DNA from: a virus
Reading direction: 5' to 3' (one strand)
Length of the DNA: 24,614 nucleotides
Virus record (IMG/VR): IMGVR_UViG_3300030339_000226
Span: 1-24,614 of that record
Below are positions 8,858 to 17,765 of this stretch, piece by piece. Numbering within the stretch: position 1 is the first letter of the stretch; every line of letters starts with the position of its first letter. Position numbers and translations under genes: made by a program. The notes under the pieces are model-generated. The model saw nothing but the letters and a program-made list of their open reading frames with translations, did not search any database and was not told the DNA's origin.

Positions 8858-9373
8858 TTATTGAATTACAGAACTTTGTATTTCACGTACTACCGAATTT
8901 AACACGTTTTCACGGTTTCTGTAGTCTTTTTTCTTAATACGATCGTATGTTATCGCATTTTTTTTGATATTGAATGCCTTTAGAATTCCTTCAATTATCA
9001 TATTTTTTTTGAACTGTTTTTCGAAGCCGGTAACGAAGTACTCGCGGATTATAAGGTTAAACATCGCCTCCAGATAATCATTAATTTGTTGCTCCCGGTA
9101 CAATGGAAAATATAAAAAATTGCTTCGTACAATATACGCACTATCTGCGCAAATCGGAAGTATTATTTTTACAGGATTATTGTACTTTTCAAATTTACGT
9201 TTAACCGGAAGATCGCTTATCAACCACATCGAATCAATATACTTACCAATGTCATTTCTTTTATGAAGTTTAATAGCTCCGGTTTCGTCCTCACCAAATT
9301 CGTGAATCAAAAAATCATGCAATTCGGGTTTCAAATCGATAATAATAACAGGATTACAGTTTTCGGCTTCCAT
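8858..9373 (-). CDS. Hypothetical phage protein
   Basis: A 171-aa protein that I do not recognise. The middle part is hydrophobic and strand-rich (VKIILPICADSAYIV, FLYFPLYREQQINDYL), followed by helical segments (LEAMFNLIIREYFVTGFEKQFKKN) and a basic C-terminal end with AITYDRIKKKDYRNRENV, perhaps a DNA-binding element. It is the first gene downstream of a promoter candidate at 9402-9433 and of the repeat array, so it may head the late transcript. Confidence 0.6.
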   Translation of the reverse strand: MEAENCNPVIIIDLKPELHDFLIHEFGEDETGAIKLHKRNDIGKYIDSMWLISDLPVKRKFEKYNNPVKIILPICADSAYIVRSNFLYFPLYREQQINDYLEAMFNLIIREYFVTGFEKQFKKNMIIEGILKAFNIKKNAITYDRIKKKDYRNRENVLNSVVREIQSSVIQ

Positions 9374-9401
9374 ATTACGAAAAATTTTAAGTTTTTAGAG
9401 T

Positions 9402-9433
9402 AAAAATTATGTTTTTAGCTATAAAAATACAAA
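9402..9433 (-). promoter_or_regulatory. Candidate Bacteroidota-type promoter
   Basis: Reading the minus strand, TTTG (9430-9433) is followed after 20 nt by TAATTTTT (9402-9409), which matches TAnnTTTG at all but the last position. It lies 29 bp before the start codon of the gene at 9373 and fits the primary sigma consensus of Bacteroidota. Confidence 0.5.
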
Positions 9434-9518
9434 TTAAATATCTGAATACCAAATTATTATACATAAATTTTATCAAAATATTAAAAATATTGAGTTTAAA
9501 AACAAAATATTTTTTTTA

Positions 9519-9702
9519 CCTACTACATACTACATGCATATAATTAACATTATATCAGCATGTTAAATGTAGTATGTTATGTAGTAGGCTCAATTTGTAG
9601 TAGGTTGTAGTATGTATGTAGTAGGTTAATTATTTATATAAAGGTACTACAATTTTTTAACTGATTATCAGCATTTTACATGCTTTTGTAGTATGTAGTA
9701 GG
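9519..9702. repeat. Array of TGTAGTAKG repeats, candidate origin or control site
   Basis: Within a 555-bp noncoding gap (9374-9928) I count nine near-identical 9-mers. Two overlap at 9519-9534 on the minus strand (as TGTAGTATGTAGTAGG); on the plus strand they are at 9569, 9580, 9596, 9606, 9618, 9687 and 9694. The identical 16-mer at 9519-9534 (inverted) and 9687-9702 (direct) bounds the array. A degenerate inverted copy is at 9643-9651. ATCAGCAT occurs at 9554 and 9667, ahead of repeat groups. The flanks are extremely AT-rich. This is the look of iterons for replication initiation, or a set of regulator or partition sites. Positions 9703-9901 show nothing else I can name. Confidence 0.75.
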
Positions 9703-9901
9703 TTAACAATCAAAATTATTTTATTGCGTTAAAATAAAATTTATATAATTAAAAATAATTTTTTATTTAAATAATAAGAATACGAGAGAATCACTGTTTG
9801 ACAAACAACTAAAAATAAAAACAAAACGGTATGCATAATTATAGCTGAATGGGGGATAATGAAAGCGCATGAATCAGGAAATCGTTTGTGTATTGATCAG
9901 A

Positions 9902-9930
9902 TAAAAAAAAACCTGCATTGCTTCAGGCTT
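9902..9930 (-). terminator. Probable rho-independent terminator
   Basis: On the minus strand AGCCTG and CAGGTT form a 6-bp stem (one G-U) with an 8-nt loop, followed by a run of T (plus-strand A run 9903-9911). It starts at the stop codon of the small gene ending at 9929 and would end that operon. Confidence 0.6.
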
Positions 9931-10644: not shown

Positions 10645-11061
10645 TTATAAAAAAGGGGCAGATAGCGGAAATTCTACTATATCAAATAGTTCACGAAATG
10701 AAGCTCCGAGTTTTGACCATTTTTCGCTTAAATAATTCGTGGTGAAAATTATGTACGGGATTTGAATTTCTTTTGGTTCTTTTCCTTGTTTTTCGACTAA
10801 TATTGAAAATTTTAAATCACCACCATTTTGTCTATCGTCAATAACATGAAAGAATTTTTCAAAATCGAAATTTGCAGGACAATCGTCAATTATTAATAAC
10901 TGTGTGTTTTCATTCAAATCTGAAAAAGCAAAACGGCTTTTCATTTGACTATGACCACCACAAAGAGTTACTGTTTTATCTTTTCCTATATATTCAGAAA
11001 TCATTTTTGCTACTCTGGTTTTTCCAGTAGCTTCTTTACCGATAAAAATTCTTGCTTTCAT
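10645..11061 (-). CDS. Small P-loop ATPase, cassette-borne
   Basis: 138 aa with Walker A GKEATGKT (8-15), Walker B LLIIDD (55-60), a sensor-1-like IIFTTN (104-109) and a possible arginine finger R123 in SFRELFDIVEF. This is a minimal AAA+/SF3-like core with no extra domain. The stop codon lies 10 bp inside the left boundary of the first cassette, and the start is 60 bp before the R'' box of the attC-like site at 11122. It therefore runs against the attC orientation. It may be a stand-alone regulator, a defence component or a helicase helper; its partner is unknown. Confidence 0.7.
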   Translation of the reverse strand: MKARIFIGKEATGKTRVAKMISEYIGKDKTVTLCGGHSQMKSRFAFSDLNENTQLLIIDDCPANFDFEKFFHVIDDRQNGGDLKFSILVEKQGKEPKEIQIPYIIFTTNYLSEKWSKLGASFRELFDIVEFPLSAPFL

Positions 11062-12377: not shown

Positions 12378-12470
12378 GCCTATAACAAACGCCTATGGTC
12401 GGCACTCCGACAACTTTTAGCGGTTTGACAGTGGTGTGCGTTTCGTGCCACCATAGCCTAATCGTTATAT
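12378..12470 (+). other. attC-like recombination site 3
   Basis: A shorter site of a different subtype. R'' TATAAC (12381-12386) pairs with R' GTTATA (12464-12469). The L arms form CTATGGT/ACCATAG (7 bp), then a single unpaired C, then GGCAC/GTGCC (5 bp), closing a roughly 40-nt loop: the textbook attC fold with one extrahelical base. Its left end, TATAACAAACGCC, equals the start of the Vibrio cholerae VCR as I remember it, which sets the orientation. The extended R'' GCCTATAAC matches its own cassette start at 11994-12002. The R' TT belongs to the methyltransferase stop codon. Confidence 0.7.
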
Positions 12471-14264
12471 CGCCATTTTTAATTCTGTTACATTGATAGT
12501 TCCGGCAATTGCTTCGGCAAGTACACGTGCCTGGTTGCATTCTACGGCGTTGCCTATAAATTTCTTTTTGTCGGCTTGTGTGCCGCACAGTTTGTATGTA
12601 TCGCCAAATCCCTGAATGCGGAGTAATTCTTCTATCAGTAACATGCGCATGCGTACATCGATTATACCGTGTGTATTGCACAGGGTTTTAAGTTGGATCA
12701 TTATTTCGGTATCATCCGGATTAATGCATATTTCAACGTTACCACTGGTAGTTTCAATCAGGTAAGGCGGGGCTTTGTCCATTCGGGCTATCAGCGTAAA
12801 GCATGGACGGTTAATGTTACCGCCCTTATTGGCAAACTGTGGATTCATTAAATAAAAATGTTTCCGGTTGGCTGTAATGGTTGGACATGGGTTTTTGAGC
12901 GAACAGCCTATGTTTTTAAACTGAGTATCCATAAGCCATTGTGCCGATACCAGGTTAAGTTTTGGATTAGCGGTAACAGTTCCGGCAGGCTGCAATATAG
13001 ACGATGGTTTACTCATACCATATTGCTGATCCATAAATTTTGACGTTACTAATGCAAATCGATCTTTTGTTGTTACTGTTCCGCAAGGTTCGGTAATCGG
13101 AGTATTAAGACCTGGTGAATTGTACGTCATTATACTTTGAAATTTGGAAGTTACCAGCGCAAATCTATCTTTGGTTGTTACTGTTCTGCAAGGTTCTTCT
13201 ATCGAACTGTTGTAGCCGTTACCGTAATAAGCTGTCAATAGTTGGTGATGATCTACTGTTGTAATAGTTTTAGCCGGACGATCGAGTGTGAAGTTTTTAT
13301 CAGCTGGCCGTCCGCTGAAAGCCTGACTCATAAACTTGGCTTTAACCAAACCAATTCTATCCTGACAACTTATAGTTGGACATGGTGCATCTACTGAAGG
13401 TGGAACGTATGTTTTGCGTTGGCTCATGCTGTTGTACTTTAGCATAAAATCATTGTCTCCATTTATTACAAAGCGTTCGATACCGGCAATTATACGCATA
13501 AGTGTTGCATCAACGAGCGGTTTCTGGCGGCTGAATATGCTTTCGCCTTCCACGTCCAGTTCCAGCACATCTTTAACCGATTTCCATTTTTCGAGAAATA
13601 TATCACCTTTTTTTGAGTGCGTTTGTACCGGGAATGCTATGTTCAATTTATCTTTGGCAAATATGCCGAAGTAACGAACACGGCTGGTATATGCTCCGTA
13701 ATCGGCTGCATTAAGTCTTCGGAAATCGTACAGATAACCCATGTTGATCAGATTATTGCGCCATTGATTATAGTAAATTCCTTTTTGCTCTTTAGCAGGT
13801 TTTCCGTTTGCGTCAAGTGGTCCCCAGTCGATAAATTCTACCACGTTTTCAACACCAATAATGTCAGGGCAAAGTACATGCACATAGCGTTCGATATGTT
13901 CGGGCAAACTTCGGCTATCGGCATCGCGACTCATTCCACCTTTGGCTTTTGAATGGTGGGTACATTCGGCCGAAGCCCAGAACAATACTTTAGCATTTGG
14001 ATATCGGAGTTTTGCATTTTCAATTATCTGTACTAATCGTTTTGGATCCAGCGTTGTAAAATCTTCGACAAAGTGAACCGTATCAGGATGATTGGCTGCA
14101 TGGCTTTCTATAGCACGTGCATCGTGATTGATACCAATTACCACACGGCAAAGTTTATTGCCCTGTTTATCGGTAGCGCGGTGAAAACCTTCGGTTACAC
14201 CACCAGCTCCGCAAAAGCTATCGATCACGATAATACGTACATTATAATCCGGAAGTATATTCAT
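12465..14264 (-). CDS. Phage-type C5 cytosine DNA methyltransferase
   Basis: 599 aa. Motif I is DSFCGAGGVTEGF (15-27, SAM binding). Motif IV is ASAECTHHS with the presumed catalytic Cys101; the usual PCQ is ECT here, as I recall for a phage subfamily of this enzyme. Motif VI is GVENV (E139), motif VIII-like RVRYFGIF is at 195-202, and motif X FIGNAV at 569-574. The region between motifs VIII and X, where target recognition lies, is built of seven repeats of about 30 residues (P-x-x-T-[IV]-[ST]..D...LV). It probably protects phage DNA from restriction. No restriction enzyme gene is adjacent. Its stop codon abuts the cassette array. Confidence 0.85.
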   Translation of the reverse strand: MNILPDYNVRIIVIDSFCGAGGVTEGFHRATDKQGNKLCRVVIGINHDARAIESHAANHPDTVHFVEDFTTLDPKRLVQIIENAKLRYPNAKVLFWASAECTHHSKAKGGMSRDADSRSLPEHIERYVHVLCPDIIGVENVVEFIDWGPLDANGKPAKEQKGIYYNQWRNNLINMGYLYDFRRLNAADYGAYTSRVRYFGIFAKDKLNIAFPVQTHSKKGDIFLEKWKSVKDVLELDVEGESIFSRQKPLVDATLMRIIAGIERFVINGDNDFMLKYNSMSQRKTYVPPSVDAPCPTISCQDRIGLVKAKFMSQAFSGRPADKNFTLDRPAKTITTVDHHQLLTAYYGNGYNSSIEEPCRTVTTKDRFALVTSKFQSIMTYNSPGLNTPITEPCGTVTTKDRFALVTSKFMDQQYGMSKPSSILQPAGTVTANPKLNLVSAQWLMDTQFKNIGCSLKNPCPTITANRKHFYLMNPQFANKGGNINRPCFTLIARMDKAPPYLIETTSGNVEICINPDDTEIMIQLKTLCNTHGIIDVRMRMLLIEELLRIQGFGDTYKLCGTQADKKKFIGNAVECNQARVLAEAIAGTINVTELKMAI

Positions 14265-15841: not shown

Positions 15842-17095
15842 TTATATAAATTTTAAGTGATATCCTTTTCGTGGTTCATTATTATCTGTTTTCGAACGGT
15901 ATGTTACAGCCTGATAACCCAGTGCATTGAGTGCGAGCCCTATTTTTTGAGGCGTTATTTTATTCATATCTTCACTTTTAATGCGTCTGTCTTTAATTAA
16001 TCGTTGTAAAATTTGAGTAGGATTAAGTTTTTCGCCTTCATTATCGTTTTCCGGAATTTCGGTGTAACTCTGAATATAGCGCATTGCATCTGTTTCAAAT
16101 TTGTATCGTGCATTGTAGGCATTGAATTCTTCGTAATCAGCCTTATCAAAATGGTAATTGAATGAACTTGATTCACAAAGTGTAAGTGCTTCGCTCCACA
16201 TCTGATCCACATCTACAATGGTGGAATATTCCTGTTGAATATCAGCTATTTCAATGCATCCGAAACGGCGTGTATCCGGACCGTACCAACTCTGGATAAA
16301 GCCTCCGTTTTCTTCATTAAAATTAGTATTGAACATCGAACAGGCTAAGCGGTTTTTTTTGGAAGGAAATTCCTCATGACGCATTTTGGTGGTGATGTGT
16401 GTACAAGTTTGTGCCATTTTGAATGTATTAATACTACCTTTCGAAAGTCCGTTAAGTTCCTCAAAGTTTACTATCATATACCTGGTATATGCATCTTCAA
16501 TGTCAAACTTATGTTCATCTTTCGATGCCTGAACATAAAATTCGCTTAGTTCGTCCGGAAGAATGAATTGTGTAAAATATGTTTTACCGCTTCCACCTCT
16601 TACATCGACAAATCCTAATGCTACATCGTTTGCAATTCCTTTAGTCCAACAGGCAACGCAGGCAACTAACCATTTGCGAATAAGTCTATCAGTACGTTCG
16701 CGATAATAAGTATCAGAATTGCCATCGAATACGCGCGGAATTATATGTGAACTTAATATGTCAATATGGCTAACACCTTTCCACTGGCCGCGGATACGAT
16801 TAAAATAATTAATTACCGGATTAACAGGTGCAATCTGATTTGGTGACCGGATAATTTTGCGGAGCATATTGTCTCCTACAATAATACTTTCGCTCATAAG
16901 ATGTAGCGATATATCGTTGAATGTGGGAGGAAATGTGTAACGATGTTTATCCTTACAACTTATTTGAATTTTAGCAGGATCCTGAATAGGAATTCTGATA
17001 TCATAGTGTTCCATCAAAAAACTAACAACTTGCTGTACTTTATCGTCGAACAGTGAGCGTTCGTTACTGATAGCGGGCTTTTCAATTTGGGGCAT
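15842..17095 (-). CDS. VapE-family SF3-like helicase/ATPase
   Basis: 417 aa. Walker A RGGSGKT (166-172), Walker B-like MIVNFEEL with Glu212-Glu213, a sensor-like SMFNTN (253-258) and arginines in DTRRFGCIEI (274-283) fit the virulence-associated E group of phage replication ATPases. The C-terminus (about 350-417) looks like a winged-helix domain. It would unwind DNA at the phage origin, possibly with a partner primase. It overlaps the upstream gene by 14 nt, so the two are probably made together. Confidence 0.8.
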   Translation of the reverse strand: MPQIEKPAISNERSLFDDKVQQVVSFLMEHYDIRIPIQDPAKIQISCKDKHRYTFPPTFNDISLHLMSESIIVGDNMLRKIIRSPNQIAPVNPVINYFNRIRGQWKGVSHIDILSSHIIPRVFDGNSDTYYRERTDRLIRKWLVACVACWTKGIANDVALGFVDVRGGSGKTYFTQFILPDELSEFYVQASKDEHKFDIEDAYTRYMIVNFEELNGLSKGSINTFKMAQTCTHITTKMRHEEFPSKKNRLACSMFNTNFNEENGGFIQSWYGPDTRRFGCIEIADIQQEYSTIVDVDQMWSEALTLCESSSFNYHFDKADYEEFNAYNARYKFETDAMRYIQSYTEIPENDNEGEKLNPTQILQRLIKDRRIKSEDMNKITPQKIGLALNALGYQAVTYRSKTDNNEPRKGYHLKFI

Positions 17096-17765
17096 GTTCT
17101 TCTAAGTATTTGTTAAGAAATTCTTCACGGGCATTTTTAAGTGCCACCGGCATCATTTTATTTTCAAAGTCTTTACGCTTTTCCCAATAATCCTGGCCTT
17201 CAAGATCATTGAAATCTTTTTTCATAATTTTCAATATTTCTAAACTCACACTATTCCTTGTTTTATCCAAATGATCTTCGAGATCTAAATTGTATTTATC
17301 ACGCTGTTTGCGTGTTAAAATGCTACGTTCCAGGTTATATTGCATAAAACCATACAGTATTCGTTGTGCGTCAACTGATCCGTAAAACGGGCCATATTCA
17401 GCACGCATAATTTTCTCAAAAATTATTTTCAAATCGGTTAAATACATGAATTTATAGTCTTTATATATCATATATGCAACCGCATTTAGTTCTGTGAGTT
17501 GTTTATTTATATTGCTGAATTTGTTAAGAAAATCGAGCCAACGAGCAATATAATTAACTGAATTATTTATTTCAGTTTCAGGATATATTATATTAATATC
17601 CTCTATCGTCATGCGGGGTTTCGCAATTGATTCTTCAATTGTATTAATATTATCGTAAGCAACTAATAATCGTGCCGGTGATAAATCATTATAGAATAAT
17701 TTATAGTTCGGATATAATTTTAGTGTTCGTTTTTGAATTGCCGTTAAATTTTCAAACTGAATCAT
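17082..17765 (-). CDS. Hypothetical replication-linked protein
   Basis: 227 aa, helix-rich, with IEESIAKPRMTIEDINIIYPETE and a central segment AYMIYKDYKFMYLTDLKIIF that precedes a YGPFYGSVDAQRILYGF stretch. I recall similar proteins upstream of replication genes in Bacteroidota phages but cannot name the family. The 14-nt overlap with the VapE gene suggests it is a replication helper, such as a loader or primosome protein. Confidence 0.6.
   Translation of the reverse strand: MIQFENLTAIQKRTLKLYPNYKLFYNDLSPARLLVAYDNINTIEESIAKPRMTIEDINIIYPETEINNSVNYIARWLDFLNKFSNINKQLTELNAVAYMIYKDYKFMYLTDLKIIFEKIMRAEYGPFYGSVDAQRILYGFMQYNLERSILTRKQRDKYNLDLEDHLDKTRNSVSLEILKIMKKDFNDLEGQDYWEKRKDFENKMMPVALKNAREEFLNKYLEEHAPN

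Follow-up and report, generated by a model that had tools for sequence, protein, structure and literature searches.

The alpha protein of phage P4 is a helicase initiator whose C-terminal winged helix reads short repeats, in ori and crr. Iteron plasmids carry direct repeats together with IHF/HU bending sites and an AT-rich flank, and their initiators are not helicases. In PICIs, the gene for the initiator is followed directly on its 3' side by the origin, in which two iteron sets flank an AT-rich region; a pri-ori segment from an E. coli PICI has been tested for plasmid maintenance (PMC6092414). In SaPIs, a primase either precedes the helicase or is fused to it (PMC10061031). In the literature searched, no paper was found that describes iterons linked to VapE in phages of Bacteroidota. 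The repeat array described here is probably (at a probability of roughly 0.8) an iteron-type replication origin of a Bacteroidota phage, bound by its VapE-family helicase.

The window, i.e., the whole stretch of 24,614 nucleotides analyzed, is a linear virus record from a Bacteroidota tailed phage; its genes include an integrase, an HTH repressor, a VapE-family helicase, and a head maturation protease. The terminases of three Duneviridae, Cellulophaga phage Ingeline and Flavobacterium phages 6H and laban6-1, show 37-41% identity to that of the window. A nucleotide search of the phage collection returned no match. The ORF list and base composition place the candidate origin in a noncoding gap of exactly 555 bp (9374-9928), with an AT content of 77% as compared with 66% for the window. 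This gap holds nine exact copies of TGTAGTAKG, on both strands and all within 9519-9702; no exact copies occur elsewhere in the 24.6-kb window. A tenth copy, on the minus strand at 9643-9651, is the TGTAGTACC variant, which is the form used by one relative (L005). Across 2000 dinucleotide shuffles of the gap, the mean number of exact copies was 0.0085 and the maximum 1; the repeat array is real and far beyond chance.

The array is bounded by an inverted 16-mer (CCTACTACATACTACA at 9519-9534 and TGTAGTATGTAGTAGG at 9687-9702) that is complementary at 16/16 positions and sits inside a longer imperfect repeat, I1; each 16-mer is built from two head-to-tail units of 7 bp (Table 1). Read in the direction of VapE, start-to-start spacings are 7 bp within the first double, 42 bp to the inverted single, and 28 bp to the direct units, which follow one another at 11, 10, 16, and 12 bp; a further 40 bp leads to the inverted double, again at 7 bp. 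The outer flanks and the right linker are the most AT-rich parts; flanks outside the array average 79% and 77% AT, and reach 88% on both sides in the window. The first-pass annotation had described at least nine TGTAGTAKG repeats in mixed orientation, an identical inverted 16-mer as boundary, and an AT-rich, 555-bp noncoding setting, all of which are borne out. Beyond that description, comparison across loci indicates that the ten units are oriented and spaced in a pattern that is kept across dozens of phages.

Table 1. Features of the candidate origin and associated genes in the window
Feature	Position	Strand	Remarks
171-aa gene that directly follows the array and opens the structural operon	8858..9373	-	Not the specificity factor (swaps)
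Outer double, a pair of units at 7-bp spacing (TGTAGTATGTAGTAGG on the minus strand)	9519..9534	-	Also kept in relatives
AT-rich linker, 33 bp, with one-mismatch IHF-like site	9535..9567	.	
Five direct single units, 7-mers starting at 9568, 9580, 9596, 9606, 9617	9568..9623	+	
Single inverted unit, TGTAGTACC variant	9645..9651	-	
AT-rich linker, 35 bp, with TGATAATCA palindrome and one-mismatch IHF-like site	9652..9686	.	
Other outer double, in opposite orientation to the first	9687..9702	+	Also kept in relatives
VapE-family helicase, proposed initiator	15842..17095	-	Pfam PF05272; PDB 7pds by profile and fold
VapE C-terminal winged helix, residues 355-416, proposed repeat reader	15848..16033	-	AlphaFold2 pLDDT ~85-93; DUF3874 weak match
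Partner gene upstream of VapE, DUF6633-like, conserved	17082..17765	-	

Domain searches and structural modeling of the 417-aa VapE protein recovered a helicase and a winged helix only. The AlphaFold2 model, based on 44 aligned VapE sequences, has a pLDDT of 90.7, and the C-terminal region in this model runs strand, helix, short turn, helix, two strands, the order of a winged helix. The nearest solved structure is PriRep1 with dsDNA (7pds; profile E = 2.3e-27, Foldseek E ~1e-14, probability 1.0), a molecule named as similar to D. nodosus vapE; further structural matches include NrS-1, the poxvirus E5/D5 helicases, and, lower down, the SaPI5 primase-helicase. On profile and fold, VapE is thus homologous to the PriRep1/SaPI Rep helicases. 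No primase domain was recognized in the 417-aa protein or in its DUF6633-like neighbor. The latter is kept directly upstream of VapE in relatives (30-59% identical), and occupies the position where SaPIs carry a primase.

VapE alignments were searched against viral contigs, GTDB genomes, and two taxon-wide genome samples, yielding ~100 non-redundant VapE genes (counts are on 99). Clusters of at least six copies of one 6-mer lie within 1.5 kb downstream of 55/99 genes and upstream of 4, a contrast that is not decisive by itself because the upstream control is mostly coding DNA; 56 of the 99 downstream regions exceed the maximum of 20 shuffles. For 44/99 genes no cluster appears within 1.5 kb downstream, and some arrays lie further away. 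Relatives whose VapE is as little as ~21% identical still carry an array downstream of the gene; among those at 35-65%, the distance to VapE is usually 70-260 bp and sometimes 1.2-3.6 kb. The window array is on the same side as in these relatives, but 6.1 kb from VapE, behind cargo genes comprising a methyltransferase and small genes. One record with a VapE identical to that of the window (G004) is a fragment that ends before any array. Searching viral contigs by array pattern alone identified 42 new stretches, 28 of them encoding VapE; of the remaining stretches, six are chance matches within structural genes, others are truncated records, and a few lie near other large helicase- or primase-like ORFs.

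Several observations accompany these surveys. The methyltransferase separating VapE from the array in the window is a C5 cytosine enzyme (12465-14264) in which several internal segments are near repeats; a 138-aa protein (10645-11061), also located between VapE and the array, has a P-loop (GKEATGKT) and an LLIIDDCP motif and resembles a single-domain SF3-like ATPase. In three stretches from the pattern search (L148, L149, L169), TGTAGTA-type repeats occur near large helicase/primase-like ORFs that are not VapE. The Winoviridae phages lotta8-2 and FPSV-S1 carry GGAACA and GTTACAC arrays of looser layout directly behind VapE (L082:5050-5340 and L083:4996-5242). In bins labeled Lachnospiraceae, Atribacteria, and Clostridia (L078, L080, L081), CGTTCC and AATTAC arrays lie no more than 300 bp downstream of VapE, in a geometry that differs from that of the window.

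The layout shared among relatives consists of inverted outer doubles, ~42-bp linkers, one inverted single, and direct singles at intervals of 10-11 bp. An identical or nearly identical layout is built from the units TACTACA, TACCACA, TACAACA, TACAACC, TTCAACA, TTACAAC, TTACCTA, TTACAAT, and TGACTAC. In one relative with the unrelated unit TTCAACA (L117), the spacings are 7, 42, 28, 11, 10, 16, 11, 40, and 7 bp, each within 1 bp of the window. The same repeat pattern thus recurs behind the same helicase gene while its letters change, so that spacing, rather than sequence, appears to be conserved. The first-pass annotation had named absence of the repeat from close relatives as a point against a role as origin; the relatives instead keep the layout and change the letters.

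A sequence-free template, in which orientations and spacings are fixed and any 6-mer is allowed, matched 24/99 VapE downstream regions and none of 375 kb of flanking control. Over 3.0 Mb, on both strands, all template matches fell in VapE-bearing records, though most loci had been recruited via VapE. The strict template misses phages 6H and laban6-1, as well as BT-TP2 and L006, the layouts of which are mirrored or looser. Left linkers in relatives measure 38-45, 52, and 62 bp, corresponding to one helix face; at 10.5 bp, linker phasing gives a Rayleigh R of 0.72 (n = 20, p ~4e-5), a value that is optimistic since the sequences are related. The E. coli IHF consensus occurs in 9/53 long linkers as compared with 0.28 expected, and with one mismatch (again relative to the E. 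coli consensus) in 24/53 as compared with 5.65 expected; the linkers of the window contain one-mismatch sites only.

The main alternative reading assigns the array to the gene that follows it, as an operator at which the 171-aa protein or another phage regulator binds the repeats and controls the late structural operon. In most loci, the array is followed first by a member of the 171-aa family (alignment A7; pLDDT 86.7, confidently predicted), and the window array adjoins its own member. The first relatives, found via this protein, suggested that the array belonged to it: a relative with 84% identity (L005) has TGTAGTACC repeats at the same place, and two others with 74% identity (L006, L007) have TGTAGGACG repeats. 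This assignment was reversed by VapE searches and natural swaps. VapE searches led to L009 (42%) and L010 (37%), in which TGTAGTA arrays lie directly behind VapE and are followed only by a remote relative of the 171-aa protein. Averaged over all pairs, repeat core compared against VapE or 171-aa identity gives means that differ little, so that the information comes from the swap cases alone. In L033 and L034 the DNA is essentially identical (~100%) up to the end of VapE and across the whole array, but unrelated from ~35 bp past the last unit, and their 171-aa homologs are only 27% identical; at this sharp recombination boundary (L033:7130-7180 and the corresponding position in L034), identical initiator-origin modules are joined to unrelated structural operons. 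L009 and L037 similarly share VapE (81%) and unit type, but only 19% of the 171-aa protein. The reverse swap is seen between the window and L006, which share 75% of the 171-aa protein and differ in repeat; L006 encodes a 1316-aa DnaG-type primase fusion, and its fragment contains no VapE. It is thus the replication gene that the repeat type follows.

Judged from these exchanges, the array and the VapE gene are one heritable module, with fixed spacing and units that change together. The operator reading is further weakened by arrays that lie behind VapE without an adjacent 171-aa family member (L058, L067) and by the 171-aa protein itself, for which no DNA-binding fold was found. This protein matched nothing in Pfam, PHROGs, or NCBIfam and had no fold match; a scan of GTDB with its alignment returned no match. 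A LuxR-type regulator was also considered as universal partner of the array and rejected, its gene being missing from several array-bearing loci. Though an origin could double as an operator, the swaps and the patchy presence of the LuxR-type gene speak against the regulator array that the first-pass annotation had entertained, and we regard the operator as an unlikely explanation.

An origin served by VapE, the first option of that annotation, is favored by the comparison: in many relatives the array lies downstream of VapE, the two travel together across a shared breakpoint, and the layout is SaPI/PICI-like. Initiation itself is what we infer from these features. VapE molecules would bind the 7-bp units via the C-terminal winged helix, and the oppositely oriented doubles, ~180 bp apart, would fold with the inner singles into one complex, possibly aided by IHF/HU-like bending in the two ~35-bp linkers. 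Such a complex could load one or two VapE helicase rings onto the adjacent AT-rich stretch, with melting of the AT-rich outer flank and the start of replication. The unit might then drift freely while the cognate winged helix follows, and the complex would hold the geometry. The GC-skew check proposed earlier was run for the window, 6H, and laban6-1 and showed no turning point at the array; skew in all three follows the coding strand and is therefore uninformative on the origin.

Three further readings are each less probable still than an operator. The units could represent arm-type sites of an attP-type recombination site, with IHF bends, for a tyrosine integrase, since phage attP has oppositely oriented arm sites with IHF-bent linkers, which the arm-like pairs and IHF-like linkers resemble. 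However, arrays are intact inside bacterial contigs carrying prophage rather than split in two halves, which contradicts this reading unless another recombinase uses the array in those elements; one 664-kb contig, for example, has the array at around 351.8 kb, with an integrase-like gene at 380 kb, and the window integrase is ~12 kb from the array. A parS-like partition or pairing site, with boxes around a bend site, has an analog in P1 parS, where heptamer boxes surround an IHF site; no ParA/ParB-like gene was recognized among the genes scanned, however, the array follows a helicase gene, and the phages carry integrases, so that this option of the first-pass annotation finds no support and is very improbable. 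A role in RNA, as an element or terminator of the transcript that links early and late genes, is equally hard to credit: the two 16-mers could pair in RNA, but an Rfam search gave no match, several relatives have degenerate outer pairs and perfect inner units, and direct units at 10-11 bp with helical phasing fit a DNA-bound protein.

The Duneviridae phages 6H and laban6-1, with a terminase related to that of the window (~37% identity), have a very similar geometry made of TCTCAAC units near their replication proteins, which, unlike that of the window, the VapE profile does not recognize. These arrays (L013:38195-38355 in laban6-1; L012:40384-40560 in 6H) are unannotated in the records, and lie next to or near the replication gene. 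A VapE-type geometry without a recognized VapE makes a shared third factor possible; the likeness may reflect shared or convergent construction, or a third protein. At somewhat less than even odds, Bacteroidota phages may contain a class of origins defined by geometry rather than sequence, in which one nucleoprotein layout is common to VapE and DnaG-type modules, its letters turn over in concert, and it is exchanged as an initiator-plus-origin cassette. A layout recognizable without its repeat sequence would allow origins to be read off genomes, each paired with its initiator, and dozens of natural protein-DNA specificity pairs for one winged-helix family would follow.

Among described systems, iteron plasmids are similar in their direct repeats, bending-protein sites, and AT-rich flank; their initiator, unlike VapE, is not a helicase, and no plasmid Rep family match was found among the window genes scanned. 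P4 alpha with ori/crr can be likened to the present system as a helicase initiator with a C-terminal winged helix, though alpha has its own primase domain, which the window VapE does not, and unit and layout also differ. The rep-ori of SaPIs and PICIs (PriRep1, 7pds; SaPI5 primase-helicase, 7ola) shares more: a homologous VapE/Rep helicase, iterons downstream of the helicase gene (here, in the relatives), element-specific iteron sequences, and AT-rich DNA beside the iterons. In SaPIs and PICIs a primase adjoins or is fused to the helicase, whereas none is recognized in or next to the 417-aa protein. PICIs place two iteron sets around an AT-rich region; here there are two inverted outer doubles, and the inner units lie between them. 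The fixed geometry, in which inverted doubles combine with an inverted single and IHF-like linkers, is a feature of the present arrays, as compared both with SaPI/PICI origins and with the looser layouts beside VapE of other phyla (L078, L080, L081). PICIs are satellites without a structural operon of their own, whereas the window has a head maturation protease, a terminase homolog, and a structural operon. These comparisons suggest that the arrangement is a SaPI/PICI-like initiator-origin unit, here in tailed Bacteroidota phages.
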